Assembly (NCBI GenBank): GCA_016178625.1
Contig: JACOSX010000047.1
Span: 1 to 59,122 of the forward strand
Length of the DNA: 59,122 bases
From: Ignavibacteria bacterium
Lineage (GTDB): Bacteria; Bacteroidota; Ignavibacteria; UBA10030; SZUA-254
Direction: 5' to 3'
Notes under the pieces: generated by a model
Told to the model about the DNA's origin: nothing
Seen by the model: the letters and a program-made list of their open reading frames with translations, nothing else
The model's database searches: none
Shown here: positions 5,212 to 34,025 of the stretch, one piece after another
Layout of the letters: each line of letters begins with the position of its first letter
How positions within the stretch are numbered: position 1 is the stretch's first letter
Made by a program: the position numbers and the translations under genes

Positions 5212-5280
5212 TAATGAACTTGATCGATCCCCAGGGTGGTTACATGCGCACAGAGTTAATGGGGAAACAACAGCAAACTC

Positions 5281-6093: not shown

Positions 6094-6105
6094 CCTTGAT
6101 CAGGA

Positions 6106-6273: not shown

Positions 6274-6291
6274 ACGCGAGTTAATTCTCTC

Positions 6292-7848: not shown

Positions 7849-7911
7849 TAAGTATCGCGCGGTGGGCTTGCATTCTCATAAATGAGATTACGGAACCCTC
7901 TTAACTAATAA

Positions 7912-9545: not shown

Positions 9546-9556
9546 ATGAGAGTTTA

Positions 9557-12282: not shown

Positions 12283-12286
12283 CGCT

Positions 12287-12886: not shown

Positions 12887-13745
12887 GAAACCGGGAGAGG
12901 GCAACCCGCAGAAGATCAAAGTCCTCATGTATCACCGAATCGTGTCAGAGGAAGAGCTGAGTCATAGCTATCCTTGGTTATGCACGCACGCGCAGGAATT
13001 CCTTCATCACCTGAGATTGTTGGAGCGGTGGGGATTCACGCCTATTACGTTCGAAGATTACAGATTATTCCAAGAAGGAGAGCTGAACTTACCAAAGAAG
13101 CCGGTGATCATCACTTTTGATGATGGTTATCTTGACACCTTCGAACACGCATATCCCCTGTTGGAAGAGTTCGGAATGAAGGCGGTCATTTTTGTCCTGG
13201 GAGATCGGAACATGAGAGTAAACACCTGGGATCAACTCGCGGGCCTTCCTATGAGCCCACTCCTCACTGAACAACAAATTCTTGAAATGCACTCCGCGGG
13301 ATTTGAGATTGGCTCACACTCGATGACGCACACCAAACTCCCGGAACTTCCGCACGAGAAAGCATGGGATGAGATCTCACGTTCTCGGATGCTCTTGGAA
13401 ATCTTGTTGAATGCACCAGTCAAAACATTCGCGTTTCCCTACGGTCTCACTGATTGCAACACAAAGAAAATGGTTGAAGACGCAGGTTATGCCATGGCGT
13501 GTGGAACGTACAGTGGACCGCCGTGTTTTGGAAATGACCCCTTTGAGGTACGGCGATTATTTATTCCTGGCTTCACCAATGCGCTCCGGTTCGCGACCCA
13601 GATGCTGACCCCCTACGAATACTATGCATGGGCGCGGTGGAGGGCAAAACTGTTGCTTATCGGCAATAAACAGAACGGCTCTACAAATGGACGCATAGCC
13701 CCTTCCAAAATTCTCAGTGCCCTGAACCCCGCGGAGAAAAGTTAA
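12858..13745 (+). CDS. Polysaccharide deacetylase (NodB homology)
   Basis: VLMYHRIV; IITFDDGYLDTFEHAYPLL; FEIGSHSMTH; FAFPYG. Start moved to ATG 12858. Confidence 0.92.
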   Translation: MNHGRPISNKKPGEGNPQKIKVLMYHRIVSEEELSHSYPWLCTHAQEFLHHLRLLERWGFTPITFEDYRLFQEGELNLPKKPVIITFDDGYLDTFEHAYPLLEEFGMKAVIFVLGDRNMRVNTWDQLAGLPMSPLLTEQQILEMHSAGFEIGSHSMTHTKLPELPHEKAWDEISRSRMLLEILLNAPVKTFAFPYGLTDCNTKKMVEDAGYAMACGTYSGPPCFGNDPFEVRRLFIPGFTNALRFATQMLTPYEYYAWARWRAKLLLIGNKQNGSTNGRIAPSKILSALNPAEKS

Positions 13746-13752
13746 GAACATC

Positions 13753-15174: not shown

Positions 15175-15179
15175 TAACT

Positions 15180-16325
15180 ATGCAAGATAAAAAACTTACA
15201 AGAATCAAAGCACTGACACTATTGACCACAGGTGTGTTACGGGCGGAACCTCAGAAAGAAGAAGCAGACGAGTGTCCGCGCGCGTCGTTGTATGAACGCT
15301 CAATCAATACCGACATGCTTGATGAGCAAGCGCTTCAATCGGCGCCGGTTTGGCGACGGCTGATGTACAGATTCATCCCGCGCATTCCATCACAGGTGAT
15401 TGAAGCATTCTTCATCAGGAGGAAGTATGATGTCGTCATCTCGTGGTCCGATCCTCATGCTTTGCTTTTCGCATCATTACTCAAACTCACTCGCACGCGG
15501 AAACCACATGTTGCCCTGATGTTTTGGATTTCCAAACCAAAGAAAGCGGCAGTCTTGAAGAGAGTACATTCCCATATTGACACCATCGTTCTCTGGACTT
15601 CCGCGCACTATGAGTTTGCCGTCAACGAACTGGCGATACCTCCCTCGAAGATTAGGTTTATCCCTTACTACGTCGATCAGAAATTTTGGCGACCGATGAA
15701 CGTGCCTACTGATCAAATTTGTTCGGTAGGAATTGAGATGCGCGACTATCCAACCCTCCTTGAAGCGTTGCGGGGACTTGATATCAGGTGTCATATAGCA
15801 GCCGGTTCAGCGCGAGGGAAATTGTTTCCGACCGTGAAAGCGATCTACGAGAATGGACCGCTTCCACCAAACATCACCGCAGGAAAATTGGGACCGGTCG
15901 AACTCCGCGCACTCTACGCGCGATCGCGCTTTGTGGTTATTCCTCTCCTTCCCTCAGAATCAGACAATGGCTTGACTGTCATTCTCGAAGCCATGGCGAT
16001 GGGGAAAGCTGTGATTTGTTCACGAACCATCGGTCAACGGGACGTTATCCAGGAAGGGAAGACGGGTTTATTTGTCCCACAGGGTGATCCGATCGCTCTG
16101 CGCGACGCGATCACTTACCTGTGGAATAATCCAAAGATAGCAGAACAAATGGGCATGGAGGGACGGAAGCTCATAGAATCAAACAACACATGGGATCAGT
16201 TCGTCAACTCGATACAATCGATAGCGGAAGAAACAGTCACGGGGGAATGTGCAGAACGCACTCTATCTGACACTACCAGAAATTCAGTGAGGATTCATGC
16301 AACTCGTGCATCAATATATTCTTGA
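15180..16325 (+). CDS. Glycosyltransferase family 4
   Basis: IRFIPYYVDQKFW; PLLPSESDNGLTVILEAMAMGKAVICSRTIGQRDVIQEGKTGLFV. Confidence 0.88.
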   Translation: MQDKKLTRIKALTLLTTGVLRAEPQKEEADECPRASLYERSINTDMLDEQALQSAPVWRRLMYRFIPRIPSQVIEAFFIRRKYDVVISWSDPHALLFASLLKLTRTRKPHVALMFWISKPKKAAVLKRVHSHIDTIVLWTSAHYEFAVNELAIPPSKIRFIPYYVDQKFWRPMNVPTDQICSVGIEMRDYPTLLEALRGLDIRCHIAAGSARGKLFPTVKAIYENGPLPPNITAGKLGPVELRALYARSRFVVIPLLPSESDNGLTVILEAMAMGKAVICSRTIGQRDVIQEGKTGLFVPQGDPIALRDAITYLWNNPKIAEQMGMEGRKLIESNNTWDQFVNSIQSIAEETVTGECAERTLSDTTRNSVRIHATRASIYS

Positions 16326-17874
16326 ATCGGCGCGGCGGCATCCCGACAAGCCCGCGATCGTTTGCGACGGGAAGCAATACTCGTACGCAGAGCTTGTTAC
16401 AAAGATCAATGCCCTCGCTGATATGTTTGTCGTTGAAGGACTCCATAAAGGTGAGAGAGTTCTCATTCTGTTACGCGACAAGTTGGATTTCGTAACCGCA
16501 TGCTACGCGGTCATACGCGCTGGTGGCATTGCTGTCCCGCTCCCGGAATCGACGTCGCTCTCGACCGTTCAGCACATTGCGAAGAATTGCGACCCGACAA
16601 TGGTTCTCACTAGTAATAGCGACTTGAGGGATCTTCCGCTTCTGCGCGATAAGTTAAGTTGCAATTTCTTTTTCATGGAAGAAAACGCGCTCCCTTCCAT
16701 TAGACACACGTTCGTCACGAGCACATCATATGCTGGGGGATCTGCGGATGACATCGACCGCATTACCAAGCTGATGGATCTTCGACAAGACGATGGAGCG
16801 CTCATCCTCCACACCTCCGGCACCAGTGGTCAGAAAAAGGGCGTCTTGCTGACTCACCGTAACCTTATCCGGGAAACGGCAAACATCAACCAGTTCACAA
16901 AGAGTGATTCACATCTGCGCGAGTTTGTTGCCCTGCCACTCGAGCAGTCGTTCGGCTTTGGAAGGGTCCGTTGTGTCCACTTTATTGGAGGAACAATTGT
17001 TCTCCTCAACGGCCCACCGAACCCCATCAACGTTATCCAGAGCATCCTCATGAATCAGTGCAATGGTTTGTCGGCAGATCCAGCAACATTCTCTCTTTAT
17101 TTCGGACTTGTCGAAGACCTCCTGAGACGGATCGGTCCGCAGATGCGGCTCATCGAACTTGGAAATTCCCCCATGCCCTTGGTTCAAAAGAAGAAATTGT
17201 TGGAGACGTTCCCGAATGCCCGCATATGCATGCACTATGGTTTGACGGAAGCATCATCCAGCACCTCTATTGACTTCCCATCTGAGCGCAAGAGACTTGA
17301 CACTGCCGGACGACGGTCACCTCACGCTGAAATCACGATTTGTGACGACAGCGGCCAGCGCCTTGAGCGCGGGAAGGCTGGAGAAATTCTTGTGCGGGGA
17401 GACCATGTCACGCCGGGCTATTGGAACAACCCGGAGCTCACCAAACAAAGCTTTCTCGATGGACATTGGTTAAAGACCGGCGACATCGGTATCCTTGACA
17501 AGGATGGTTACCTTATTGTATTAGGAAGGAAAGACGAGATGATCAATGCCTCAGGCATAAGAATCTCTCCACTGGAGATCGAAGAAAAGATCCACGAGGC
17601 ATATCCCGAAAGTGAAATTTGCGTCGTGGGAATTCCGGATCCATCCGGTGCTGGAGGAGATATCCCTGTGCTCTGTTATATTCCACGAAATGGAAAAACA
17701 ATCATACCTTCCGAGCTTTCCTCGTTGCTCGCTAAACGTCTTGATCCCAACAAGATTCCTCGAATTGTATATCGCGTCGATCATTTTCCACAAATCGAGA
17801 ACAAGATCGCGCGGCATGAGCTGAGGAAAAGACTATTAGAAGGGATCCCTTATCCTGTCCGGCAACTGATGTAA
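16297..17874 (+). CDS. AMP-dependent synthetase/ligase (adenylate-forming)
   Basis: LILHTSGTSGQKKGVLLTHRNL; MHYGLTEAS; KTGDIGILDKDGYLIVLGRKDEMINASG. Confidence 0.95.
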   Translation: MQLVHQYILESARRHPDKPAIVCDGKQYSYAELVTKINALADMFVVEGLHKGERVLILLRDKLDFVTACYAVIRAGGIAVPLPESTSLSTVQHIAKNCDPTMVLTSNSDLRDLPLLRDKLSCNFFFMEENALPSIRHTFVTSTSYAGGSADDIDRITKLMDLRQDDGALILHTSGTSGQKKGVLLTHRNLIRETANINQFTKSDSHLREFVALPLEQSFGFGRVRCVHFIGGTIVLLNGPPNPINVIQSILMNQCNGLSADPATFSLYFGLVEDLLRRIGPQMRLIELGNSPMPLVQKKKLLETFPNARICMHYGLTEASSSTSIDFPSERKRLDTAGRRSPHAEITICDDSGQRLERGKAGEILVRGDHVTPGYWNNPELTKQSFLDGHWLKTGDIGILDKDGYLIVLGRKDEMINASGIRISPLEIEEKIHEAYPESEICVVGIPDPSGAGGDIPVLCYIPRNGKTIIPSELSSLLAKRLDPNKIPRIVYRVDHFPQIENKIARHELRKRLLEGIPYPVRQLM

Positions 17875-17932
17875 CAGCTAAATATACGTTGGATGATAAT
17901 AATAACTACGATAGAAACCCATTATTGATCTC

Positions 17933-18841
17933 ATGATGATACACATGAACCACGATAAATCTCCGCGTACTACAGATGGGCAGACACACAGGAATTATAG
18001 TGATGCCATCGAGAAACAACAACACCTCGCTGACACTCATTTCCAATCCGCTGCAGTGTATTGGAAAGCTATTTATGAAGACCGAGACCTGCAGAGCCAG
18101 ATTTACCAGCAACGCCGAGAAGTCATTCTTGATATGATTGATGAGATTTCCCTGCCAACAAATGCACACATCCTGGAAGTTGGCTGTGGCGCGGGATATA
18201 CGACGGTTGAACTTGCGCGCCGGGGACATAGGATTGAAGCAATCGACACTGTTCCAGACATGCTGGAACTTACGCAAAACCTCGCTCTCGAACACCGAAT
18301 CTCAGACCGCGTAAAAACAAGCATTGGAGATACATACAACCTACATTTTCCTGACGACAGTTTCGACTTCGCCGTTGCCATGGGAGTCCTTCCTTGGCTC
18401 CAATCGCCCTTAAAGGCAATTCGTGAGATGCATCGGGTCTTGAAGCCCTCGGGCTTCATTATCATAACAGCCGATAATCGATGGCGATTGAACCATATTC
18501 TTGATCCATTCCTCAATCCTCTGTTGGTGCCATGGCGATCTCTCCTCGGAAAGACACTACGATCCCTTGGTTTGAAGAAGCCCGTCGGTGAGGGCGCTCA
18601 CGTCTATATGCATTCTACACGCCAGGTCGATGGATTTCTTCAAGCAACAGGGTTTGAGCGTATGAACGGCGTCACAGTCGGATTCGGGCCTTTTTCGTTC
18701 TTTGGGAAGGTAATCCTGCCAAATTCGGCCGGTGTCAAGCTGAACGAACAACTTCAGATTTTAGCGGATCGGGGCGTTCCCGGTTTGCGATTAACCGGTT
18801 CACATTACATCATTCTCGCGAAGAAACCGAGAACAGGCTGA
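17933..18841 (+). CDS. Class I SAM-dependent methyltransferase
   Basis: HILEVGCGAGYTTVELARRGHRIEAIDTVPDMLELT; GFIIITADNRWRLNHIL. Confidence 0.9.
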   Translation: MMIHMNHDKSPRTTDGQTHRNYSDAIEKQQHLADTHFQSAAVYWKAIYEDRDLQSQIYQQRREVILDMIDEISLPTNAHILEVGCGAGYTTVELARRGHRIEAIDTVPDMLELTQNLALEHRISDRVKTSIGDTYNLHFPDDSFDFAVAMGVLPWLQSPLKAIREMHRVLKPSGFIIITADNRWRLNHILDPFLNPLLVPWRSLLGKTLRSLGLKKPVGEGAHVYMHSTRQVDGFLQATGFERMNGVTVGFGPFSFFGKVILPNSAGVKLNEQLQILADRGVPGLRLTGSHYIILAKKPRTG

Positions 18842-18911: not shown

Positions 18912-19757
18912 ATGAAAAGACCAACAAGAAAAAAGAAATCAGGAAAACTTCATACTAGTGATTATCTCAAGAATATTGGAGTTCCGGAAATCACACCGGC
19001 GACAAGTCCCTTCGATCCGGGCTACGATCCTGTGACACTCGAAAGCCATCTTGAACAAAGCTCACATCTGATGTCCATTCTGAAGATCTCTATGGCGTGC
19101 TGGATGATCGCCAACGAAAAAGTCACTCGCCGAAAAATTGCCGCTGCAAAAAAATACAAAGTTCCGACTACCACAGGTGGAGGACCCTTTGAAGTGGCAG
19201 TGCAGCAGGGAAAGTTGTTGGAATACCTCGATCTCTGCGCCGACATGGGAGTCACCCGCATTGAGTGTGGCGAGGGGTTCACTGATATGACATTGAAACC
19301 ACGTGACGTGGTCACACTTGCGAATGAGAGAGGACTTGATGTTCAATTTGAGTTGGGGAAAAAACACGAAGGCGCTTTCACAAAGGACGCAGTCGAAGGA
19401 TTGATTGAGCAAGGACATCGATGGCTCGACGCGGGAGCTCTCCAACTTGTCGTTGAGGCACGGGAGAGTGCTAAGGGTGTCGGCTTGTTCGACGATCAAG
19501 GAAACTTTAACTGCACATTCGCCGATCGATTTGCGAAAGCCTTTGGTCACGAAATTGTGATGTTCGAAGCTCCAAACAAACCGAGTCAGTTTGCTCTTTT
19601 AGATTATTTCGGTCGGGAAGTACACCTGTGCAATGTCCGGCTTGAAGAAGTGCTACGAGTGGAAATCTATAGGCGCGGACTTCACTCAGATGCGTTCGAG
19701 AAAGAAAACCTTCGTCCGCGACTACCAGAACAATCCCGCACAACAGTGAAAGGTTGA
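18912..19757 (+). CDS. ComA-like (phosphosulfolactate synthase family) protein, divergent
   Basis: GGGPFEVAVQQGKLLEYLDLCADMGVTRIECGEGF; VQFELGKKHEG; LDAGALQLVVEARES; VMFEAPNKPSQFALLDYFGREVHLCNV; RRGLHSD. These follow the ComA block order. Confidence 0.8.
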   Translation: MKRPTRKKKSGKLHTSDYLKNIGVPEITPATSPFDPGYDPVTLESHLEQSSHLMSILKISMACWMIANEKVTRRKIAAAKKYKVPTTTGGGPFEVAVQQGKLLEYLDLCADMGVTRIECGEGFTDMTLKPRDVVTLANERGLDVQFELGKKHEGAFTKDAVEGLIEQGHRWLDAGALQLVVEARESAKGVGLFDDQGNFNCTFADRFAKAFGHEIVMFEAPNKPSQFALLDYFGREVHLCNVRLEEVLRVEIYRRGLHSDAFEKENLRPRLPEQSRTTVKG

Positions 19758-19769
19758 GGAGATCACACT

Positions 19770-20486
19770 ATGGACTGTAGGGTAGTCATCGATTGTTTCC
19801 CGGACAGTGTCCGACGATATAGAGAAGGATACGCGATTGTCGCCATTGATGTTATTCGCGCAACCACGACAGCGGTTACAGCAGTCGCAATGGGCAGAAG
19901 GTGTTTTCCTGTTCCATCGATCGAAATGGCAGTCCCACTCGCGGCGCGGCTGGATCATCCATTGCTTGTTGGCGAGCTCGGCGGCAATATGCCCTACGGC
20001 TTCGACATGAACAATAGTCCGGCAGAGATGGTGCACCGGAACGATCTGATGCGTCCGATGATTCTGTTGTCGTCATCCGGAACACAACTAATGCACAACG
20101 CGAAAGATTGCGACGCCGCCTACGTTGCCTGTTTCCGCAATCATGGCGCGATCGTCAATCATCTCAAGGATCGCCACCACAGAGTCGCCGTTATCGGCGC
20201 TGGGACGCGAGGAGAATTCCGTGAAGAAGACCAGATGTGCTGCGCATGGATTGCAGAGAGTCTCATGAAGGTAGGATTCAAACCCGAAGACGATCAGACT
20301 CTCGACGTCATCAAGAGGTGGAGCGGTGCGCCGGTTGAAGCGTGCGCAAGTGGCAAGAGTGCCGAGTATCTTCGCAAGAGTGGTCAGACAAAGGATCTCG
20401 ATTTTATTCTGACTCACATAAACGACCTCGATTCAGCGTTTATGTTCAAGCATGATGAAGTCGTGAGGATTCCGATTTCGGAGTAA
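19770..20486 (+). CDS. ComB-like (2-phosphosulfolactate phosphatase family)
   Basis: AIDVIRATTTAVTAVAMGRR; LLVGELGGNMPYGFDMNNSPAEM; SSSGTQLM; VAVIGAGTRGEFREEDQMCCAWI. Confidence 0.88.
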   Translation: MDCRVVIDCFPDSVRRYREGYAIVAIDVIRATTTAVTAVAMGRRCFPVPSIEMAVPLAARLDHPLLVGELGGNMPYGFDMNNSPAEMVHRNDLMRPMILLSSSGTQLMHNAKDCDAAYVACFRNHGAIVNHLKDRHHRVAVIGAGTRGEFREEDQMCCAWIAESLMKVGFKPEDDQTLDVIKRWSGAPVEACASGKSAEYLRKSGQTKDLDFILTHINDLDSAFMFKHDEVVRIPISE

Positions 20487-20603
20487 GGGACCGACCAACA
20501 CCTCGCTTGATGTCTGAACCGGGGAGCGTTCAAGGAAGAATCAAATCTTCGTTTTTACTGTCAAGAAAAAAATCTTTAGTACAATGTTAGAAGGAACATC
20601 GAC

Positions 20604-21344
20604 ATGGCTACCATCGCAAAACCAAAAACCGCAGAAATGAATCCCGGACCGGGCTTCCGGATTCGATCACAAATTTCACGGCCTGATCCGAAAGTTATTG
20701 TCGGACTTGGAGAATTTGATACGCCAGTGATTTCAGATCTCATGAATCGTTTATACACAATGAATCCGGCAATTCGAAATCTGACGTCACCAGACCTTAA
20801 GATCCTTGGACCAGCATGCACGGTCAAAGTGTACCCCGGGGACAACCTGATGGTCCACAAATCACTCGATGTTGCGAAACGCGGGGATATCATCGTTGTC
20901 GATGCGGCGGGATCGCGCATGAATGCAGTCCTCGGCGATCTCGTTTCCACAAAAGCGCGCCACCGAGGCATCTGTGGATTTGTTGTCGATGGGTTTATCC
21001 GCGACATCGAGGGGATCATGAAGCTGAATTTCCCCGTCTATGCACGCGGGGTCACTCCAATCGGACCTCTGCACAGGGGACCGGGAGAAATTAATTTCCC
21101 GATTCAATGTGGCGGGATCGTCGTCAACCCTGGCGACATCATCATCGGCGATATGAACGGCGTCATCGTCGTTCCTCAAGAGATCGCTCCTGATCTTCTT
21201 CTCCGATTACGAGAGCGCAAGGAAGCTGAAGCTGCATACCTCGCTGCTGTTCAACGCGGAGAGTTCTCCAATGCTTGGGTGGACAAATTGTTGGAAGAAG
21301 GTAAGTGTGAGATCATCGAAAACGGACAAAATGTTCAACACTGA
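20604..21344 (+). CDS. RraA-like family (HMG/CHA aldolase - oxaloacetate decarboxylase-like) protein
   Basis: DTPVISDLMNRLY; VDAAGSRMNAVLGDLVSTKARHRGICGFVVDGFIRDIEGI; GVVVNPGD-type IVVNPGDIIIGDMNGVIVVP. Confidence 0.9.
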   Translation: MATIAKPKTAEMNPGPGFRIRSQISRPDPKVIVGLGEFDTPVISDLMNRLYTMNPAIRNLTSPDLKILGPACTVKVYPGDNLMVHKSLDVAKRGDIIVVDAAGSRMNAVLGDLVSTKARHRGICGFVVDGFIRDIEGIMKLNFPVYARGVTPIGPLHRGPGEINFPIQCGGIVVNPGDIIIGDMNGVIVVPQEIAPDLLLRLRERKEAEAAYLAAVQRGEFSNAWVDKLLEEGKCEIIENGQNVQH

Positions 21345-22461
21345 GGCAAAAGAGACAACACGAAGTAGCGGACGGTTGCAGCGTTGGGCTATTCACGTCT
21401 GGCGGCTGGCGTACTACTTGAAATTCGTGTGGGACAAATTAGCAAATCGATGGGGAACGCTGGACGACCCCATGAGAACGAATTTCTACATCGACATGTG
21501 GCGAGCCGCTGCTCAAGAACTCTCGGTGAAGTTTACACAACTCCCCGATGGTTTTTGTGAAGCATCGGTGAACGGACGATCCACGCGCATGTACCAAAAT
21601 CTTATCATGCTGGATCACCCGGTGACAATGAAGCTCGCGCGGAATAAGCCGTTAGTCCTGAAGCTCCTCTCAGATCATGGGATTATGGTGCCGGAGTATT
21701 GTGAGTTTACCCTCCGGAACATCGCTCCGGCAATCGAATTCTTACACCATCATTCCCCATGCGTTGTGAAGCCAGCGCACGGAACTGCCGGCGGTGAGGG
21801 CGTGACGACCAACGTGCGGTCCATTCGCGAGCTCAAACGAGCAGCGATCTTCGCCTCATTATACGGACATACATTATTAATGGAGCGGCAGATTCCCGGA
21901 GAATCCTACCGACTGCTGTATCTCAATGGGGAGCTGATCGACGCTATTCGCCGAAGATCACCGAGGGTGATTGGTGACGGCACATCGACAATTCGCGAAC
22001 TGATTAAACGTGAAAACGAACGGCGCGCATATCTGAACGGTACTGAAGGACTTACGTGGCTCCGCGCCGATCTCGATTGTCGGGCAACGCTTCGAGCGGG
22101 TGGGCGTACGCTCAACACTGTGCCGAAGTCCGGCGAGGAAATCGTTGTCAAACAGGCTGCAAATGATAATTCTTCCAGAGAAAATGAATCGGTCCGTCAC
22201 CTGCTCTGCGACCAGTTAATTCGTGAAGGAGCACGTGCTGCAATGATCGTTGACGTAAGACTTGCTGGTGTCGATCTGATCACAACTGATCCTCGGCGAC
22301 CACTGAAGGAAAGCGGCGGTGTCATCAATGAAGTAAATACAACCCCCGGGCTACATTATCATTACCAAGTGAGCGATAAAGCACATCTGGTTCCCGTGCT
22401 CGTTCCGATCTTGCGGCATCTGTTGGAACTTGACGTTCATCAACAAGTAAATTCATACTGA
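21331..22461 (+). CDS. ATP-grasp ligase resembling the cyanophycin synthetase/GshF-type catalytic domain
   Basis: VVKPAHGTAGGEGVTT; RLLYLNGELIDAIRRRSPRVIGDGTSTIRELI; GGVINEVNTTPGLHYHY. Start taken at ATG 21331. Confidence 0.85.
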   Translation: MFNTEAKETTRSSGRLQRWAIHVWRLAYYLKFVWDKLANRWGTLDDPMRTNFYIDMWRAAAQELSVKFTQLPDGFCEASVNGRSTRMYQNLIMLDHPVTMKLARNKPLVLKLLSDHGIMVPEYCEFTLRNIAPAIEFLHHHSPCVVKPAHGTAGGEGVTTNVRSIRELKRAAIFASLYGHTLLMERQIPGESYRLLYLNGELIDAIRRRSPRVIGDGTSTIRELIKRENERRAYLNGTEGLTWLRADLDCRATLRAGGRTLNTVPKSGEEIVVKQAANDNSSRENESVRHLLCDQLIREGARAAMIVDVRLAGVDLITTDPRRPLKESGGVINEVNTTPGLHYHYQVSDKAHLVPVLVPILRHLLELDVHQQVNSY

Positions 22462-22472
22462 ACGAATAGCAA

Positions 22473-23768
22473 GTGAACCAGCAACCGACAATATCTCCTT
22501 CTCTTCCACCTGCCATCCTTATTGGTGGCGGAGCGATCGCGCTCTCAGTTGCGCGATGCCTCGGACGACAGGGAATCACCGTGTACGCTTTGGACGGTCC
22601 ATCATCGGAAGCGCGGTATTCGAAATACTGCACGTGGATTCCGCTCCCGTACAACGCTGGAAATATCTTCAACAATGGGAATACCCAACACCTCTGGGAA
22701 AATTGGCTGTTGGGCGAAGCGACGCGAATCCATAAGGGAGCCGTCGTGCTGCCCTGTTCTGACGAAGGTCTTGAACTGATCATCAACCATCGAGCAACAC
22801 TTGAGAAACATTACAAAGTGATTGAAGCAAACGACGATGTGATTCGCTCGATGTTAGACAAAGCACTCACGTATGAGCTCGCTCAGAAGTTGAACGTCCC
22901 GGCACCGCGAATATGGCAAGTCGACACACAGGCAGATCTGCTAAAGCATCTGGATGAATTTCGATACCCATGCGCGCTAAAACCCCGTTCATCCCATGAT
23001 TTCGTCAAGCATTTTCCATCGCTGAAGATGTTCATCGTCGATTCGTCAGAGGAATTGATTCGGGTATTTGCCGATGTCCAACAGTACAATCTACAAATGA
23101 TTGTGACAGAACTTATTCCCCAAAGTCCGGAAGGGTATTGGAGCTATTACAGTTATCTCGATGAAGCTGGTACTCCGTTGTTCCATTTCACGAAACGGAA
23201 ACTGCGTCAATACCCAAATACCTTCGGCCTTGGAACGTATCATGTCACCGATTGGAATGCGGAAGTCGCAGAGGCGGGTTTGAGATTTTTCAAGGCAATT
23301 GGCCTTCGCGGCGTCGGCAACGTTGAGTTCATGCGAGACCCACGCGATGGTCAACTCAAGCTGATCGAATGTAACGCCCGCTTCACACTCACCACAGAGC
23401 TTGTCGCCTCGAGCGGGATTGACATCGCGTCGATCGCATACAACAGGTTGACCGGGCGAGCAATTCCACGAGTCGATTCTTATCGCACCGGTCTGTACAC
23501 CATTCGACCGACGAGTGATTTTCTTGCATTCTTGGAGATGAGACGCCGAGGCGAACTGACATTCCTTGAGTGGGTGAAGAGTATTTCGCATCGTCAGCAG
23601 CTTCTCATTTTCCACTGGAGCGATCCAGTGCCGGCACTAGCTCGAAGCAGACCATTTTTCTCGAGGCAAATCAGGAAACTCATCGGAGCGCTTCCCTTTA
23701 CCCAACGGACGGTCGGCGCTGACGTAAAGACTGTTTCCCGATCAACCGTGAAAGGCGGCTCGTTGTAA
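22473..23768 (+). CDS. ATP-grasp carboxylate-amine ligase-like protein (GTG start)
   Basis: AILIGGGAIALSVARCLGRQGITVYALDG; CALKPRSSHDF; VGNVEFMRDPRDGQLKLIECNARF. Confidence 0.85.
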   Translation: MNQQPTISPSLPPAILIGGGAIALSVARCLGRQGITVYALDGPSSEARYSKYCTWIPLPYNAGNIFNNGNTQHLWENWLLGEATRIHKGAVVLPCSDEGLELIINHRATLEKHYKVIEANDDVIRSMLDKALTYELAQKLNVPAPRIWQVDTQADLLKHLDEFRYPCALKPRSSHDFVKHFPSLKMFIVDSSEELIRVFADVQQYNLQMIVTELIPQSPEGYWSYYSYLDEAGTPLFHFTKRKLRQYPNTFGLGTYHVTDWNAEVAEAGLRFFKAIGLRGVGNVEFMRDPRDGQLKLIECNARFTLTTELVASSGIDIASIAYNRLTGRAIPRVDSYRTGLYTIRPTSDFLAFLEMRRRGELTFLEWVKSISHRQQLLIFHWSDPVPALARSRPFFSRQIRKLIGALPFTQRTVGADVKTVSRSTVKGGSL

Positions 23769-23770
23769 GA

Positions 23771-24850
23771 ATGATAACGATCTCCAAAGATGAACTCGAG
23801 CTGTTCGCGACGGATTTGTTGCTCGCCGCGAAGTCCTCGCGGGAAGATGCCGAGCTCGTCGCCCATTCGCTGGTATGGGCAGATCTGCGCGGTCGACAAC
23901 CACAGGGCGTTTTTCGCATCCCCGTGCTGGTAACGATGATCCACCATGGTTTGATTACTTCTCCAACTGAAATGAATTGGTCTAAGCGTTCCGAAGTCAT
24001 GTATCATCTCGACGCGGGAAATGGATTTGGTCAGGTCGCGGGTTATCGGGCGATGCAAAAAGCAATTGACATCGCCAAGAAAATCGGCATCGGCATGGTA
24101 ACAGTGAATAGGAGCAACCACTTTGGCGCCGCTTCATACTTCTGCGCGCTGGCAGCAGATGCACAGTGTGTAGGACTGACCTTCACTAATGCTACACCTA
24201 AAGTGGCGCCATTCGGCGGAACCAAGCCGATCCTTGGAACAAATCCGGTTGCCTTCGGGTGTCCGACATCTTCCGGTGTTCCGATCCTCGTTGATTTCTC
24301 AACGTCATCGATAGCAGGCTCGACCATCAGAACAATTACCGAAGGTGGCGGTCGATTGCCCAAAGGTGTCGCTCTCGATGCATCCGGACAACCAACAACC
24401 GATCCTGCAGCACTTTCATCAGGTTGCTTGTTACCTGCTGCGGGTGCAAAAGGGTATGGTCTTGGTCTTATGATCGAAATCTTCTGCGGTATCCTCGCAG
24501 GCGCAGGCATGAGCCATGAAGTTGGTCCGTTCTACTCTACATGGAAACGACCCGTCAATTCAGGTCACATGATGATGGCGATCGACATCAGCCGACTTCA
24601 GCCGTTGGATATGTATTTTGATCGACTGGATCAACTCATCAAGGAAATCAAGAGTTCGCCTACGCTGGAACATGTCGACGAAGTCTTGATCCCCGGTGAG
24701 GTTCGTGGAAGATTCGCGGATCAATTTTCTCGCGAAGGGATTCCGCTCAACGACGAGACGATCCATGGATTGGAAAATCTCGCTCGTTCTCTCGCGGTCG
24801 AAGTACCTTGGAAACAGGCAGCGCCGGTCAGCGTTCACGATAAACAGTAG
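23771..24850 (+). CDS. Malate/L-lactate dehydrogenase family 2 (Ldh2; same family as ComC sulfolactate dehydrogenase)
   Basis: VNRSNHFGAASYFCALAA; PFGGTKPILGTNPVAFGCP; LPAAGAKGYGLGLMIEIFCGILAGA. Confidence 0.88.
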   Translation: MITISKDELELFATDLLLAAKSSREDAELVAHSLVWADLRGRQPQGVFRIPVLVTMIHHGLITSPTEMNWSKRSEVMYHLDAGNGFGQVAGYRAMQKAIDIAKKIGIGMVTVNRSNHFGAASYFCALAADAQCVGLTFTNATPKVAPFGGTKPILGTNPVAFGCPTSSGVPILVDFSTSSIAGSTIRTITEGGGRLPKGVALDASGQPTTDPAALSSGCLLPAAGAKGYGLGLMIEIFCGILAGAGMSHEVGPFYSTWKRPVNSGHMMMAIDISRLQPLDMYFDRLDQLIKEIKSSPTLEHVDEVLIPGEVRGRFADQFSREGIPLNDETIHGLENLARSLAVEVPWKQAAPVSVHDKQ

Positions 24851-24900
24851 TTCATCACTATCACAATGTTCATGTTCCAACAAGATCAAGGAGTTTCAGA

Positions 24901-25890
24901 ATGAGCCGTACAATGTTCAGCTTCGATCCTGCTCAATGTGCCGGGCAGTTCGCGGCAGAAGGGTATGTCCATATCCCTCATGGTGTGACAAAGGAATTCT
25001 ATGCTAAGATGGCGAAGCAGGTGGACGAATACATGAAAACCAAACTCCTGAAAGAATTCGCGATCGGCGACAAGCAGCAAGCGCGGTACGAATTCCCCGA
25101 AGATGCAGATTACGTGAATGAACTTTTTGGTGCCGTTGGTAGGGTGTGTGGCTTGGATCCTAAAGAGCTGGTGCTTTCCGAGCGTCATATCAAGGGATAT
25201 GAAGCAAACGCAGACCCGGAACCGCATGCTCACAAGGATCGATTCGCTTCTCAAATTTCAGTGGGGATTTCCGTTCACGTACGAGAAGGATCTACACTGG
25301 TGCTCTATCCGTATGATGACACGGCGGTCAATCCGTTCAACGCGTCAACATTGTTGAGGGCAAGCCTTTCTCCCGATCGTTATCCGGAACCGACACTGAA
25401 ACGCGCGCGTCGAGTAGAAATAAATGATGCAGCGGGAGATGTCATCATATTCCGTGGACATCAGTTCTGGCATTTACGAGCGAATCCCGCCCTCACGACA
25501 ATGCTCTATCTTAAGCTGAACGCCTTCAACTGCGATCCTCTAGGAGAAGATCCAAAGACGGAGGAATACAAAAAGCGTACACAAGTGGCGGTGAGTATGA
25601 ACGATCACCAGCTTGAGAACATGGTTCCGATGATCGGTCGGCGCGTGGATTACTTCCATCGACACTATAATAGAGACTGGGTGGAGGTCCTTGGAGTCGT
25701 GCTGTGGGGAGAGAAACACTTCACGGTGGATGGAGATGAATTCTCCGCTCTCCAACAGATGGATGGCAAGCGCACAGTCCGGTCGGTGGTGCAATCTATG
25801 AACGGCAATGTTAACCGCGCCGAGATGCTCAAGAAGTTCCGTCGCCTTGCAACACGCGGCGTGATCGATCTCGTCGCTCCATTAGATTAA
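24901..25890 (+). CDS. 2OG-Fe(II) oxygenase/phytanoyl-CoA hydroxylase-like protein with a C-terminal winged-helix/PqqD-like segment
   Basis: Candidate HxD (PHAHKDRF) and distal His (RGHQFWHLR); C-terminal FSALQQMDGKRTVRSVVQSMNGNVNRAEMLKKFRRLATRGVIDLV. Confidence 0.55.
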   Translation: MSRTMFSFDPAQCAGQFAAEGYVHIPHGVTKEFYAKMAKQVDEYMKTKLLKEFAIGDKQQARYEFPEDADYVNELFGAVGRVCGLDPKELVLSERHIKGYEANADPEPHAHKDRFASQISVGISVHVREGSTLVLYPYDDTAVNPFNASTLLRASLSPDRYPEPTLKRARRVEINDAAGDVIIFRGHQFWHLRANPALTTMLYLKLNAFNCDPLGEDPKTEEYKKRTQVAVSMNDHQLENMVPMIGRRVDYFHRHYNRDWVEVLGVVLWGEKHFTVDGDEFSALQQMDGKRTVRSVVQSMNGNVNRAEMLKKFRRLATRGVIDLVAPLD

Positions 25891-25913
25891 TCATTCGATA
25901 AGAACGTGCCAGT

Positions 25914-28625
25914 ATGAATTTACTTACGATATCAATATCCCTCAACGTGTGGTTATCTCACGTTGCCGAGATAGGTCGGTCGGTAGTTGCTTCGTTGGTC
26001 GGTTATATCCAAGCAAGCACGATAGCGTTGAAGAAATCTCCCTCAACGCACTGGCGACCGTCACACTTGCATGTTGAGGAGATCCGACACATAGACGATG
26101 TGGCAAGGCTTGAGCCAGTGTGGAACAATCTCCTTGACCAACATGAGCGACCGATAATTTTCTTAACCTACGAATGGTTCATCGCCTGGTGGAAATGCCT
26201 CGGCGGTAACGGCAAAGAGCTTCTCATATTGGTTGTCAAGGATGAAGATGAGATTCTGGGAATCGCCCCGTTCATGGAAGTACACGAAACATTTTTTGGA
26301 TTGCCGATAACAAAAATCGAATTTATCTCGACAATGAAGTATGCAGACGCTCCGGCGAATTGCTCAGCCACGCTCGACATGATTATCGGCAAGAGACACG
26401 CTGAAGTTGTTTCGGCGGTGATCAATCACCTGGCACATCACCATCGGCGATGGGACTTCCTGCGGTTCAATCCGCTGAATGAACATTCTCTCACACCTTC
26501 ATTGATTGAACGCGAAGCTCTACGACACGGCTACAGGTTTAACAAGCACCCTGTGTTTGCCAATGCCTACATTTACGTGACAGCAGACTGGAATCACTAT
26601 CGTCTGCAGGTTTCAGCCCGCGCGCGCAAAGCACTTGCCGCGTATGATCGAAAGTTGCGAGAGCTTGGCGTGGTTACGTACGAAGAATTCAGGACTGTGG
26701 AAGAGATTGAGAATCGATTCAACGACTTGTTATCGATCGAACAACGGAGTTGGAAATGGGACGTCGGCGTGAGCATCAATTCGGTCGTATTCAGAGATTT
26801 CTATCAAGTCTTCGCGGAAGACGCAAGCAGAAAAGGACTGCTCCGTCTTTGGATGCTCAAGGTGAACGACAAATATATCGCATACGATTACAGTGCCGTA
26901 TTCAAGGGATATCTTGTTTCCCTCAAGACAAGTTACGATGAGGCGTATCGCAAATACAATCCCGGCAATCTTTTAACGTGGCACGAGTTCGAATATTTCA
27001 TCAACGGAGGGATCAAACGGATCAATTTATTGTGGGGCGATGTCAAGGCGAAAGAACGCTGGTTGACTGAGCTCGAATCGCACTACGAGGTGTTCGTTTT
27101 CAATACGAGTGTGTACTCAAGATTCCTTCGCATGCTTTTCTTCTCATTGTCGTTCTATCGGATTCGGAGAATTATCATTGATTATAGAAACAGAATTGCC
27201 AGAAAAGCGGGACTGAGACTCACAGAATCCGAATTGACACGCTCGGATCAGGTAAAGCACCGGGGAGTGAAGATTCAATCGATAAACCAAGACGCTCAGA
27301 TTGCCACAACGATGACTTCGATGAATACCACCAAGATACATACAGAGATAAAAAAACAGGACACGACCGTTCCGGTCGTTGTCCTGAAATCGTTCCATCA
27401 TCTTGGACTGGGAGTTGTCCGCAGCCTTGGACGACTCGGTATCCCAGTGTATGGAATTGATCCGAACCCACTGGCACCCGGTCTCCATTCTCGTTATTGT
27501 CGCGAGAGATTCATCTGGGATGTTGACAATGCCTCCCAAGAATCAACTGTGAATTTTCTTTTGGACGTTGGGAAAAAACTTGGCAAGCGATCCATCCTCA
27601 TCAACACGGCTGACGAAACTGCCCTTCTCCGTGCCGAATATGCTAACGTATTGAGCGAATGGTACATCTTCCCACGGTTATCACCCACGCTCATCCAGTC
27701 TCTCACGAGTAAGAAAGAGATGTATTATCTCGCGAAAGAGCATTGCGTCCCAACTGCCGAAACGGCGTTCCCCCGAACACGAGACGACGTGCTACAGTAT
27801 CTTGACCATGTAGCCTTTCCCGTGATGCTCAAGGGAATCGACGGTCAACTTCTAGAGAAAAGAGCCGGCAAGAAAATGGTCATCATCAAGAACAAGAAAG
27901 ATCTCCTCGATCATTACGATAGAATGGAAGATCCGGAACATCCCAATCTGATGTTACAGGAATATCTCCCCGGCGGCGATGATACGGTCTGGATGTTCAA
28001 CGGATATTTCAATGAGAACTCTGATTGCCTTTTCGCGATCACAGGGAAGAAAATACGACAGGCACCAGTGTATACCGGTTACACATCGCTTGGGATTTGT
28101 CTACCGAACCCGACCGTAGAACAAATGACAAAAGACTTCATGAAAAAAATCGGTTATAGAGGAATCCTCGACATCGGCTATCGATACGACGCTCGGGATG
28201 GGAAATACAAAGTTCTCGACATCAATCCTCGGATTGGGGCGACATTCCGCCTCTTCGTTGCGGAGAATGGAATGGATGTCGCTCGCGCTAAGTATCTCGA
28301 TCTCACCGGACAAACAGTTCCTCACTCTTCAATGCGCGAAGGACGCAAATGGTTCGTGGAAGATCGGGATATTGTCTCAAGCATACGGTATTTCAGGGAC
28401 AAGAATTTAACCGTGCGACAGTGGCTGAAATCGTTCCGCGGTGTACAAGAGGCTGCCTGGTTCGCACCGGATGACGTTTTTCCCTTTCTCCTCATGTGCT
28501 GGGAACTCATCCGAAAGTTGTTTAAACGATCAGTCCGCTTCCCACTCGCGCATTTTTTCTCCCTGACCGCTACCTGGATGCAGAGAACCGATCATGTGAA
28601 TAATGGATTTTCAGACACTATGTGA
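25914..28625 (+). CDS. Fusion protein: N-terminal BioF2/GNAT-type acyltransferase + C-terminal ATP-grasp ligase
   Basis: N-term LEPVWNNLLDQHERPIIFLTYEWFIAWWKCLG (paralogous to 13753 and 28635 ORFs); C-term VPVVVLKSFHHLGLGVVRSLGRLGIPVYGID...VMLKGIDGQL...LDINPRIGATFRLF (paralogous to 22473 ORF). Confidence 0.85.
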   Translation: MNLLTISISLNVWLSHVAEIGRSVVASLVGYIQASTIALKKSPSTHWRPSHLHVEEIRHIDDVARLEPVWNNLLDQHERPIIFLTYEWFIAWWKCLGGNGKELLILVVKDEDEILGIAPFMEVHETFFGLPITKIEFISTMKYADAPANCSATLDMIIGKRHAEVVSAVINHLAHHHRRWDFLRFNPLNEHSLTPSLIEREALRHGYRFNKHPVFANAYIYVTADWNHYRLQVSARARKALAAYDRKLRELGVVTYEEFRTVEEIENRFNDLLSIEQRSWKWDVGVSINSVVFRDFYQVFAEDASRKGLLRLWMLKVNDKYIAYDYSAVFKGYLVSLKTSYDEAYRKYNPGNLLTWHEFEYFINGGIKRINLLWGDVKAKERWLTELESHYEVFVFNTSVYSRFLRMLFFSLSFYRIRRIIIDYRNRIARKAGLRLTESELTRSDQVKHRGVKIQSINQDAQIATTMTSMNTTKIHTEIKKQDTTVPVVVLKSFHHLGLGVVRSLGRLGIPVYGIDPNPLAPGLHSRYCRERFIWDVDNASQESTVNFLLDVGKKLGKRSILINTADETALLRAEYANVLSEWYIFPRLSPTLIQSLTSKKEMYYLAKEHCVPTAETAFPRTRDDVLQYLDHVAFPVMLKGIDGQLLEKRAGKKMVIIKNKKDLLDHYDRMEDPEHPNLMLQEYLPGGDDTVWMFNGYFNENSDCLFAITGKKIRQAPVYTGYTSLGICLPNPTVEQMTKDFMKKIGYRGILDIGYRYDARDGKYKVLDINPRIGATFRLFVAENGMDVARAKYLDLTGQTVPHSSMREGRKWFVEDRDIVSSIRYFRDKNLTVRQWLKSFRGVQEAAWFAPDDVFPFLLMCWELIRKLFKRSVRFPLAHFFSLTATWMQRTDHVNNGFSDTM

Positions 28626-28634
28626 GCATAAAGC

Positions 28635-30068
28635 ATGGAAATTGAATCAATAGAACCGCCACGAGTAACTAAAGCCCGTATGTTCCGACCAAGAATCGAT
28701 GCGAAATCTCACGTCCGGCTCATTACGAGTAATGCGGAGTTCGACGCTCTCGAAGAGGAATGGAATACCTTGCTGGGGCATACAGATACCTCTGTCTTTC
28801 AAACCTTCGAGTGGTTGCGCACATGGTGGAAATACTTCGCCAAACCGAACTACCGATTGCACATCATCGTATTCATTTATGAACAACGGATCGTTGGGAT
28901 CGCACCTCTTTTCATCGAACGGCAACGCGTTCTCGGATTAAGGATCTTTTCACGGCTTCAGTTCATCGGACGAGGGCTCTCCGACTATGTCGATTGCATC
29001 ATCCAACCCGGATTCGAGCAGATCGTACTCAACGCGTTTGCTCACTATCTCAACGCGAACTCAAAGCAGTGGGACGTCTTCGATGTTGAGGATGTGAATG
29101 AACGATCTCCCCTAGTAAAGATCTTCCCCGACATGCTGCGTAACCATGGAATCAATGTCTACCAATATCAAGGAAATGTGTGTCCTTATATTAATCTTCC
29201 GACATCAAGTGAAATGCTGTTGCCGAGTCTTGGTCCGACAACAAGTTACAATTTCAAACGGAAATTCAAGCGTCTCCAGCAGGGCTTCAAAGCGGAAGTG
29301 GAAACCTACAAGGAAGAGACGGATGACATTCAGCGAGCTGTCGCAGAGTTCTCCCACATCCACGGAGGACGGTGGAAGAGTCAGGGATATCCAAGCGCGT
29401 TTGATGACGAAAAGCACCGCGCGTTTCACGTCGAATTCTCTTGCAAATTTGCGCGCCGTGGCTGGCTCCGTATCTTCTTCCTCAAAGTTAACGATCTTCC
29501 AGTCGCAGTAAGCTACAGCTTCAATTACAACAAGCGAATCTACATGTATCAGAGCAACGCCCACGGAACAGACGATGTGATGAAATGCAGCCCGGGATTC
29601 CTGGTCCGCAGCATCGCCATGGTCGATGGGATTGAGGAAGGCATGAGAGTATTCGATTTCTTGCGCGGCGACGAAACATATAAGTATAAGGAATGGAAAG
29701 CCATCGATAGCAAGAACTATTTGATCCGGGCGTCTTCTCCCACTCACATGAGCCGCCCGAGATTTATGTTCTTCCTCATGTTCGAACTCCTCATGAAATG
29801 TACCGTGCGGGTGAAGCGCGAATATTATCAATTCCGCAGATTCAACATTGTCAAGCCAAGAACCGCGTGGGAAAAGGTACGTTATGTCGGATTGAAGATC
29901 ACTGACTTGTTTGCTTTGGGATATAATTTTATCGTCCGGCATTCGCCTTTCCGCTCAATCCAAAAGCTACAGATCGAGAGAAGAAAGTGGGACGAGGAAC
30001 CTGCGCCATCAAAAGAATTGGCACAAAGAACTTCGGACAAAAAACCCGATCATTCCGGAGGGTCGTGA
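28635..30068 (+). CDS. GNAT acyltransferase, BioF2-like/Acetyltransf_6
   Basis: ALEEEWNTLLGHTDTSVFQTFEWLRTWWKYFA; FLRGDETYKYKE. Confidence 0.88.
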   Translation: MEIESIEPPRVTKARMFRPRIDAKSHVRLITSNAEFDALEEEWNTLLGHTDTSVFQTFEWLRTWWKYFAKPNYRLHIIVFIYEQRIVGIAPLFIERQRVLGLRIFSRLQFIGRGLSDYVDCIIQPGFEQIVLNAFAHYLNANSKQWDVFDVEDVNERSPLVKIFPDMLRNHGINVYQYQGNVCPYINLPTSSEMLLPSLGPTTSYNFKRKFKRLQQGFKAEVETYKEETDDIQRAVAEFSHIHGGRWKSQGYPSAFDDEKHRAFHVEFSCKFARRGWLRIFFLKVNDLPVAVSYSFNYNKRIYMYQSNAHGTDDVMKCSPGFLVRSIAMVDGIEEGMRVFDFLRGDETYKYKEWKAIDSKNYLIRASSPTHMSRPRFMFFLMFELLMKCTVRVKREYYQFRRFNIVKPRTAWEKVRYVGLKITDLFALGYNFIVRHSPFRSIQKLQIERRKWDEEPAPSKELAQRTSDKKPDHSGGS

Positions 30069-31796: not shown

Positions 31797-34025
31797 ATGA
31801 TCAAAAAGGTAACGTATACACTAATGTTGGTTGCTATTATACAAGTACCTGTCGATGCTCAGCTTCATCATTTTGTCGTTGACACAGTGGGTGGAGGAGA
31901 TATCACGATCGTGACCGCCGGTCAATCGTTTTTCATCGAGGTCCTTGCGAAGGACAGTCTCAATAATACAGTCACGGATTTCACGGAGACGGTAACTATA
32001 TCATCCTCGGGGACGCTGCTATCCGGCGGAGGAATTACGGCACCGTTCATCGGTGGTGTTTTAGCTTCACATGAAATTGTCCTTTCCAAAACTGGTGCAA
32101 CCACGATTACGGCAACACGGGCATCCGGGGGATCAGAGTCAGGCACCAGCAATGCGTTCACAGTTCTCCCGGCCATGCCGACGAAAATATTGGTTGAGAC
32201 GGCACCCGACGGCAGCGGAGGGGTGGTCCCAGCACAGGATCTTGTTTCAGGTAATGCGTTAAATGTCTTCGCTGTCGAGCGAGATGCATTTGACAATTTT
32301 GTGGCGAATGCTCCAGCGGACAATTGGTCATTAGAAAACGTGACCGGGGGAATTACGGGCAGCGACTTGGTTCCAAGTGGAGATAGCACGAGTGCGACCT
32401 TCACGGGGCATTTCGTAGGGACAGCACAGATCAAAGCCACTGCAGGCTTGTTGAACCCGACAAGTTCTGGAACTTTATCCGTCATCCCGGGATCAGCCAA
32501 CCACGTTGTATTTACTCAACAGCCTTCAGATGCGATTGCCGGTGCCACAATAACTCCCACGCTCACCGTCCAGTTGAAGGATTCGGTAGGCAATGACGTT
32601 CACTCCTCAGCGATCGCTATAGGAATTGCATTGACAACGGGTACCGGTTCGCTCAGTGGAACGTTGACACAATCGACCAATGGCAGCGGACTTGCCGCCT
32701 TCAATGACTTGAGCATCAACATTGCCGGGACAAAGAGACTCACGGCGTCTTCGGCTGGATTGATACCAGTCGTGAGCAATACGTTCACGATTTCTCCGGG
32801 GACGTTAAATAACTTCCTCGTCGAGTCGAGCGGCGGCGGGAGTATCCCAACACAAACAATGGGAACACCTTTCAACATTAAAATTACCGCGCGGGACTTG
32901 CAGAATAATACTGTTACGAGTTTCTCTGGCAGTGTGGATATCACCTCGACGGGGACGCTCTCTCAGGGTGGAGGTACGACTGCCGCCTTCACCAGCGGGG
33001 TTCTTTCTTCTCATACAATTACAATCGCAAACGCTGGGACGTTTACGGTTACTGCAACTCTGACCGGTGGATCAGCGAGCGGCACGAGCAACGCCTTCAC
33101 TGTTAACAACCCTCTTCCCACAACGACGAGCATCACACCAGCCACCAAGACACTTGGTGAATCGGGATTCACGATGACGATCAATGGAACAAACTTTCTC
33201 TCCACTTCTGTAGTTCGTTTCAATGGAGCAAACCGGACAACAACTTTCGTCAACGGCACACAACTCACAACTTCCATTCCTGCCAGCGACCTAACAACAG
33301 CAGGTACATTCCCCATCACAGTCTTTAATCCGGCGCCGGGTGGAGGAACATCAAACTCACAAAACTTCAGGGTTCTCACTTCCGTAGTAAATATCAAAGT
33401 CATCCTCCAGGGTGCGTACAGTGGGGGCACGATGAACACAACATTGAAGAACACCGGACTCCTCCCGCTTCTCCAGCCCTACAAAGGTGACCCCTGGTTT
33501 TACTCCGGCACAGAAAGTGTCGGGACAATTCCGGCAAATATTGTCGACTGGTTGCTCATTGAGGCAAGAACCGGAACGCGAGGAATCACAAGAGTTGGAA
33601 CACACGCAGCATTTCTCAGATCGGACGGAGTGGTTGTAGACATGGACGGTGCGAGTCCTGTGGCATTCCCTGGTATATCAATAGGCAGTTACTACATCGT
33701 CGTTAAACATAGAAACCACCTTGCAATTATGAGCGCAGGACCTGTTGCCCTCAATGATTCGAGCACGTTGTATGATTTCACGACCAGCACTTCAACGTAT
33801 TATGGTGCAGATGCAAAGAATTTAGGTGGTGGAAGATTCGGCATGTATGGAGGAGATTATTCCCAAGATGGGTTTATTGATAGCGATGATTTCGCCGGAC
33901 CGGATAACGATCTCTTCAAAAGTGGATATCGAGCATCTGATTTAAACTTGGATGGATTCGTAGACTCTGATGATTTCATCAATCCGGATAATAATGTTTT
34001 TAAGACCACCCATGTACCAAATTAA
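31797..34025 (+). CDS. Secreted surface protein: Big/Ig-like repeats, IPT/TIG domain, C-terminal dockerin-like Ca-binding duplex
   Basis: Signal peptide; repeated Ig-like blocks; TSITPATKTLGESGFTMTINGTNF (IPT); YSQDGFIDSDDF...LNLDGFVDSDDF. Confidence 0.85.
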   Translation: MIKKVTYTLMLVAIIQVPVDAQLHHFVVDTVGGGDITIVTAGQSFFIEVLAKDSLNNTVTDFTETVTISSSGTLLSGGGITAPFIGGVLASHEIVLSKTGATTITATRASGGSESGTSNAFTVLPAMPTKILVETAPDGSGGVVPAQDLVSGNALNVFAVERDAFDNFVANAPADNWSLENVTGGITGSDLVPSGDSTSATFTGHFVGTAQIKATAGLLNPTSSGTLSVIPGSANHVVFTQQPSDAIAGATITPTLTVQLKDSVGNDVHSSAIAIGIALTTGTGSLSGTLTQSTNGSGLAAFNDLSINIAGTKRLTASSAGLIPVVSNTFTISPGTLNNFLVESSGGGSIPTQTMGTPFNIKITARDLQNNTVTSFSGSVDITSTGTLSQGGGTTAAFTSGVLSSHTITIANAGTFTVTATLTGGSASGTSNAFTVNNPLPTTTSITPATKTLGESGFTMTINGTNFLSTSVVRFNGANRTTTFVNGTQLTTSIPASDLTTAGTFPITVFNPAPGGGTSNSQNFRVLTSVVNIKVILQGAYSGGTMNTTLKNTGLLPLLQPYKGDPWFYSGTESVGTIPANIVDWLLIEARTGTRGITRVGTHAAFLRSDGVVVDMDGASPVAFPGISIGSYYIVVKHRNHLAIMSAGPVALNDSSTLYDFTTSTSTYYGADAKNLGGGRFGMYGGDYSQDGFIDSDDFAGPDNDLFKSGYRASDLNLDGFVDSDDFINPDNNVFKTTHVPN

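Follow-up and report, generated by a model that had tools for sequence, protein, structure and literature searches.

ATP-grasp ligases convert a carboxylate into an acyl phosphate, which is then attacked by an amine, a chemistry that is established for the superfamily. Described relatives of the proteins reported here include the ATP-grasp domains of cyanophycin synthetase (CphA) and NAGGN synthetase and the carbamoyl-phosphate-synthase-like ATP-grasp proteins (PRK12767). Sulfolactate is produced by the ComA-ComB pathway of methanogens, which is also present in Bacillus spores; sulfonated carbon is abundant in nature, and we know of few well-known biosynthetic sources beyond sulfoquinovose, taurine, and coenzyme M. 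At the CA_C2189 locus of Clostridium acetobutylicum, an ATP-grasp aminoacyl ligase is encoded among glycosyltransferases and is proposed to modify a polysaccharide; in the excerpted text of that report, the locus has a single ATP-grasp gene among sialic-acid-type genes, and neither of the gene combinations presented below is described (PMC4000134). Here, we analysed a 59,122-nucleotide contig of an Ignavibacteria bacterium (JACOSX010000047.1 of assembly GCA_016178625.1; this whole stretch is called the window), in which a single-strand run of genes (positions 18912–30068, forward strand) lies inside a polysaccharide locus encoding Wzy, Wzx, WecG, GT4, a deacetylase, and FemAB-like GNATs. This run encodes three ATP-grasp domains, Grasp1, Grasp2, and Grasp3. 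With a probability of roughly 0.5, we read the locus as an exopolysaccharide operon that contains two independent cassettes, each combining the supply of an acid with ATP-grasp ligation: cassette B (ComA, ComB, and Grasp3), which would use sulfolactate, and cassette A (RraA, Grasp1, Grasp2, an Ldh2-like dehydrogenase, and a 2-oxoglutarate (2OG) oxygenase), which would use another acid. This reading draws directly on the gene content, the intact ATP-grasp sites, the separability of the two cassettes, and their linkage to polysaccharide genes.

An earlier note on this DNA had placed ATP-grasp ligases in the open reading frames (ORFs) at 21331 and 22473 and in the C-terminal half of the ORF at 25914. 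The ORFs are as it described, all three assignments hold and are far beyond chance, and the ATP- and Mg-binding residues, on which that note had made its proposal depend, are intact in all three domains of the window. Grasp1 (21331–22461, domain to 22458) was assigned by NCBIfam, PDB, and phylogenetic comparisons. Its longest ORF reading is 21271–22461, and the alternative ATG at 21331, 14 bp within the end of the RraA gene, is the likelier start. In NCBIfam, it is closest to cyanophycin synthetase (8.7e-47), followed by NAGGN synthetase (2.7e-41), and in the PDB, cyanophycin synthase 7lgn comes first (8.3e-29); the residues K126, K167, E205, D335, E354, and N356 are intact. Like the CphA and NAGGN synthetase domains, Grasp1 thus has an ATP-grasp domain with a catalytic Lys and a Glu/Asn metal site and presumably performs amide ligation via an acyl phosphate; unlike them, it is a stand-alone protein of 376–396 residues with neither a Mur-ligase nor a GNAT part. 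In a tree of 43 sequences, 36 Grasp1 proteins are split from the CphA/NAGGN synthetase outgroup by a 100/100 branch, although the NAGGN branch is long. Grasp1 is therefore CphA/NAGGN-synthetase-like but a clade of its own, and its scores lie far below the cut-offs of both families. Identification as cyanophycin synthetase was rejected on the missing Mur-ligase domain, the separate clade, and a score of 159.8 bits where the family requires 877. Identification as NAGGN synthetase was likewise rejected (141.7 against 569 bits, separate clade, and no GNAT-ATP-grasp architecture), and no NAGGN amidotransferase was found among the window proteins. A plasmid search with Grasp1 gave distant matches only, all with <60% identity (~31–32% among the matches listed), and the matches listed that carry a gene name are called NAGGN synthetase or cyanophycin synthetase.

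Grasp2 (22473–23768, domain to 23765) has only weak ATP-grasp matches in Pfam and NCBIfam, and its assignment as a carbamoyl-phosphate-synthase-like ligase rests on these together with an AlphaFold model (mean predicted local distance difference test score, pLDDT, 89.6), which matches the structures of biotin carboxylase, PurK, and carbamoyl-phosphate synthase with E-values of ~1e-15 to 1e-17. Grasp3 (~27354–28625, domain to 28622) is the C-terminal half of a 903-residue fusion (25914–28625) and was recognized by hhalign comparison with Grasp2 and by its linkage to ComA. The N-termini of these two proteins had been noted as paralogous; the resemblance is real and reaches well past the N-terminus, and the two are full-length paralogues, because the hhalign match extends over 388 columns (probability 100%, E 4.7e-62, 26% identity). 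The residues K130, K170, E285, E299, and N301 of Grasp2 and K120, K160, D289, and N291 of Grasp3 (domain numbering) are intact. Both proteins, which we take to be COG3919-like, resemble carbamoyl-phosphate-synthase-like ATP-grasp proteins in their weak profile matches and, for Grasp2, in the modelled fold, but they fall below every family cut-off and are each tied to their own acid-supply genes. Besides Grasp3, the rest of the genome contains no other close homologue of Grasp2, with one partial match at 1e-4. An additional Grasp2/3-like paralogue (~25% identical) occurs in sister polysaccharide loci (L075, 13650–17017; L078, 12106–14529; also L074, L077, and L079), in some of them together with a GNAT and a protein that weakly resembles proline dehydrogenase, and possibly represents a third acid cassette. 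In two loci without ComB, Grasp3 lacks the metal-binding Asp (L078, 10805–12097; L079, 9637–10986, where the Asn is also missing) and, judging from these losses, may be inactive or altered.

A scan of genomes with a single Grasp1 sequence as the query found nothing, and a Grasp1 alignment used as the query in public genomes yielded 41 loci, of which 34 were retained for counting; as one locus has two copies, these correspond to 35 Grasp1 genes, which span Proteobacteria, Planctomycetes, Actinomycetes, Gemmatimonadetes, and other groups. Of the 35 Grasp1 genes, 23 have RraA and 26 have full-length Grasp2 within 6 kb; over the same distance, 12 have the Ldh2-like dehydrogenase and seven have a DUF1932 6-phosphogluconate-dehydrogenase-like enzyme, all of these counts being lower bounds because several contigs end near Grasp1. 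One of the two dehydrogenases is present in 19 of the 35 neighbourhoods and both together in none; Grasp2 adjoins Grasp1 in most loci. The five-gene order RraA-Grasp1-Grasp2-Ldh2-2OG oxygenase is identical in the window and in G005 and G489, which belong to the same order. In G005, the polysaccharide locus is colinear with that of the window, and the cassette A proteins are 49–76% identical. RraA is present in three of the 10 genomes tested, exactly those with cassette A. Near cassette A of G154, we also observed a fusion of a pyruvate kinase-like protein with ATP-sulfurylase and a weak sulfotransferase match (L017, 10573–12768 and 8959–9912, respectively).

Cassette B begins with a ComA homologue of the phosphosulfolactate synthase family (18912–19757), with a full-length Pfam domain (PF02679, residues 31–260, 9.1e-47) and a match to PDB 1qwg (3.4e-32); in the alignment with 1qwg, K151 of the window protein corresponds to Lys137, which we assume to be the catalytic residue of ComA. 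It is followed by a ComB homologue of the 2-phosphosulfolactate phosphatase family (19770–20486; PF04029, 5.9e-37; PDB 2yyv, 4e-16). The window shares both enzyme families with the methanogen pathway, as adjacent genes, and differs in that they sit in a polysaccharide locus together with an ATP-grasp ligase. ComA-ComB adjacency is also seen in five of the other loci (L019, L037, L074, L075, and L076). In G013, ComA is 82–83% identical and the order is methyltransferase, ComA, ComB, GNAT/Grasp3 fusion, and GNAT. The occurrence of the Grasp3-GNAT fusion in both the window and G013 suggests that the two parts act together. ComB and/or Grasp3 immediately follow ComA in G592, G517, G616, and G213. 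Between ComA and Grasp3, G477 has ComB spread over two ORFs and then a 261-residue ORF; the two ComB ORFs overlap (L075, 9757–10496), as expected of a frameshift or assembly error. A small methyltransferase-like ORF separates ComA from Grasp3 in G595, where Grasp3 starts at the contig edge, and ComA of G544 is followed by a different ATP-grasp paralogue. Among 391 genomes of the class, ComA (≥38% identity) was detected in nine and Grasp3 (E 1e-80 or better) in eight; all eight Grasp3 genomes have ComA, and eight of the nine ComA genomes have Grasp3 (Fisher p 7e-16, a value that overstates independence because the genomes are related and share ancestry), the Grasp3 profile having been built mostly from loci reached via ComA. 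Loci of the same order that bear cassette B share the Wzy/Wzx/glycosyltransferase backbone of the window. In another family of the class, polysaccharide loci that have no Grasp3 contain a ComA homologue (36–37% identical) immediately next to a similarly sized gene (L081, 6053–8179; L082, 131–2256), and the partner gene in L081 encodes a DegT-type aminotransferase.

The earlier note had suggested, from several ATP-grasp enzymes next to an acid-making pathway, a stepwise amide- or peptide-like ligation onto an amino sugar or a small peptide-like decoration, which implies a single route fed by one acid. If so, the three ATP-grasp proteins and the genes resembling ComA, ComB, and ComC would act sequentially on a single sulfolactate-derived acid; all the genes are on the same strand, spaced by −14 to 117 bp, and a metagenome-assembled genome of Desulfobacteraceae (L037) contains ComA, ComB, Grasp3, and Grasp1 within ~7 kb. 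The distribution of the genes argues otherwise. Grasp1 and Grasp2 co-occur with RraA, the Ldh2-like or DUF1932 dehydrogenase, and the 2OG oxygenase, usually without ComA and ComB, whereas Grasp3 co-occurs with ComA and ComB, usually without Grasp1 and Grasp2. G005 retains the complete cassette A without cassette B in its colinear locus, and a ComA search of its genome was negative; conversely, G477, G517, G592, and G013 have ComA-ComB-Grasp3, and neither RraA nor Grasp1 was found in them (G013 and G592 being 79 and 88% complete, respectively). In addition, the Ldh2-like gene belongs to cassette A and to a group that lacks the active-site histidines of its family. As each cassette exists without the other, a single sulfolactate pathway is disfavoured, and we regard it as distinctly improbable. 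The neighbourhood conservation that had been anticipated was thus found, but in the form of two cassettes, and what endures of the earlier proposal is amide- or peptide-like ligation of acids in a polysaccharide locus, which is still the best reading.

The remaining enzymes of cassette A point to an acid other than sulfolactate. The RraA-family protein (20604–21344; PF03737, 1.6e-46; PDB 3noj, 1e-29) has the features of the HMG/CHA aldolase-RraA family of class II aldolase/decarboxylase-like enzymes, and R133/D134, presumably the Arg-Asp pair of the active site in HMG aldolases, is invariant in 24 sequences. The putative Fe(II)/2OG oxygenase (24901–25890) belongs to no Pfam family, carries an extra C-terminal domain, and was recognized from its structure model (pLDDT 87.9), which resembles 2OG-Fe(II) oxygenases (E-values of 1e-6 to 5e-8); the HxD...H motif accompanies the fold, with H111, D113, H191, and K205 invariant in 13 sequences. 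The NAD(P) dehydrogenase-like protein (23771–24850; PF02615, 2e-106; PDB 1vbi and 2x06) belongs to the Ldh2 family of L-sulfolactate/ureidoglycolate dehydrogenases, in which a study of AllD reported that His44 and His116 are invariant and proposed His116 as the general base (PMC3527362). The window protein has Gln at the His44 position and keeps His116. Across 13 cassette A members, Gln, Tyr, His, Phe, or Trp occupies the first position and His, Leu, Phe, or Tyr the second, and both histidines are gone in those of L020, L039, L046, L047, and L049; the His44 and/or His116 equivalents are thus missing in most members. The cofactor-site residues (Thr-Asn-Pro and the Asp174 equivalent) and the equivalent of AllD Arg48 are kept. 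Because the active-site histidines of the family are lost while the cofactor site is kept, these enzymes probably have an altered reaction or substrate. The window protein deviates from the sulfolactate dehydrogenase ComC at the His44/His116 pair, and its gene belongs to cassette A; this ComC look-alike is probably not a sulfolactate dehydrogenase, and its expected label, 'L-sulfolactate dehydrogenase', is best avoided.

The same observations bear on whether the locus encodes the opening steps of coenzyme M synthesis, as could be supposed from three families matching methanogen ComA, ComB, and ComC. The gene that resembles ComC is a companion of cassette A, its product has no counterpart of His44, and ComA is tied to an ATP-grasp ligase in polysaccharide loci. 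Moreover, sulfopyruvate decarboxylase alpha, part of the ComDE pair, has no match in the genome, the search having covered ComDE and not a bacterial route that dispenses with it; matches to the beta family are weak, under the cut-off, and present in all control genomes. We give this explanation almost no weight.

Under the two-cassette reading, ComA would couple sulfite to phosphoenolpyruvate and ComB would strip the phosphate to give 3-sulfolactate, which Grasp3 would activate with ATP as the acyl phosphate and join to an amine, an amino sugar or an amino acid; the fused GNAT domain would act before or after this ligation. Sulfolactate is the most likely acid for Grasp3 because of the family membership of ComA and ComB. 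In cassette A, RraA, as an aldolase or decarboxylase, and the Ldh2-like or DUF1932 dehydrogenase would make or trim a different 2-oxo or 2-hydroxy acid, the 2OG oxygenase would hydroxylate either that acid or the amine to which it is joined, and two successive amide bonds would be formed by Grasp1 and Grasp2. The combination of an aldolase/decarboxylase with a dehydrogenase of the 2-oxo/2-hydroxy acid family suggests an aldol-derived hydroxy acid. The amine could be provided either by an amino sugar within the repeat unit or by an amino acid. Cassette A might instead produce a free, soluble dipeptide-like metabolite, an osmolyte or siderophore-like compound, as NAGGN synthetase does, its proximity to polysaccharide genes being secondary; the kinship of Grasp1 to NAGGN and cyanophycin synthetases and the few polysaccharide genes at some loci are in keeping with this. 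However, glycosyltransferases (GT4), Wzx flippases, deacetylases, UDP-sugar dehydrogenases, and GNAT families are the commonest neighbours of cassette A across phyla, and no further gene family is constant across the Grasp1 loci, so that a soluble product appears unlikely, though less so than the single pathway considered above.

Several points weigh against the two-cassette reading. ComA reaches only 161.6 bits against the equivalog TIGR03849 (cut-off 280), and ComB is also under its NCBIfam equivalog cut-off, which makes sulfolactate an assignment at the family level. ComB is not linked to ComA in G213 and G616, and at least one of the two metal ligands, Asp and Asn, is missing from the Grasp3 proteins of these genomes; cassette B may therefore not always work as proposed, although a distant ComB homologue elsewhere in each genome might substitute. 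Some cassette A loci lack obvious polysaccharide genes, and the substrate of the FemAB-like GNATs need not be what the ligase makes. It also counts against the reading that we infer the two acids (sulfolactate for cassette B and a hydroxy acid for cassette A), the amide bond, and the acceptor role of the polysaccharide or its precursor. More tentative still, and short of even odds, is the fuller proposal that the order to which the window belongs and a Desulfobacteraceae lineage make an exopolysaccharide with amide-linked 3-sulfolactate by ComA-ComB-Grasp3 and that the widespread cassette A installs an undescribed acid by two ATP-grasp ligations. If true, sulfonate would have a new biological source in the ComA-ComB-ATP-grasp cassette, and polysaccharides a route, independent of sulfate, to strong negative charge. 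The carriers of cassette A include the isolates Pseudonocardia asaccharolytica and Croceibacterium soli, in which its chemistry is directly testable. Literature searches on ATP-grasp with RraA, sulfolactate with glycan or with both polysaccharide and ATP-grasp, and sulfolactic acid with polysaccharide returned nothing relevant. Neither cassette is described in the literature searched, which excluded most subscription papers, including Iyer et al. 2009, reportedly a survey of ATP-grasp amidoligases, so an earlier mention is possible; the enzymes come from known superfamilies, and their combinations appear to be undescribed.

The cassettes follow a conserved polysaccharide backbone (3874–18841, forward strand) that encodes chain-length/tyrosine kinase-like, Wzy, FkbM, WecG, Wzx, GT4, deacetylase, GNAT, acyl-CoA-ligase-like, and methyltransferase proteins and is mostly colinear with L006/L020 and L075–L080. 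From the gene at 16297 onward, the short intergenic distances given above are consistent with an operon. The N-terminal half of the Grasp3 fusion (25914–27353) is a CelD/FemAB-like GNAT (Acetyltransf_6, PF13480, 4.6e-20), which is a gene of its own in G005. A second GNAT of the same family (28635–30068; PF13480, 7.9e-24) ends the run and is also kept in G005 and G013. A PHROGs search gave nothing informative. A 742-residue protein has at its C-terminal end (33800–34025) a repeat of the pattern GDYSQDGFIDSDDF...DLNLDGFVDSDDF in two copies, which look dockerin-like by eye and have no Pfam match. In a 3472-residue protein encoded just downstream of the locus (34049–44467), InlB B-repeat-like stretches were matched 14 times, and the C-terminal end is FlgD_ig/Por_Secre_tail-like.

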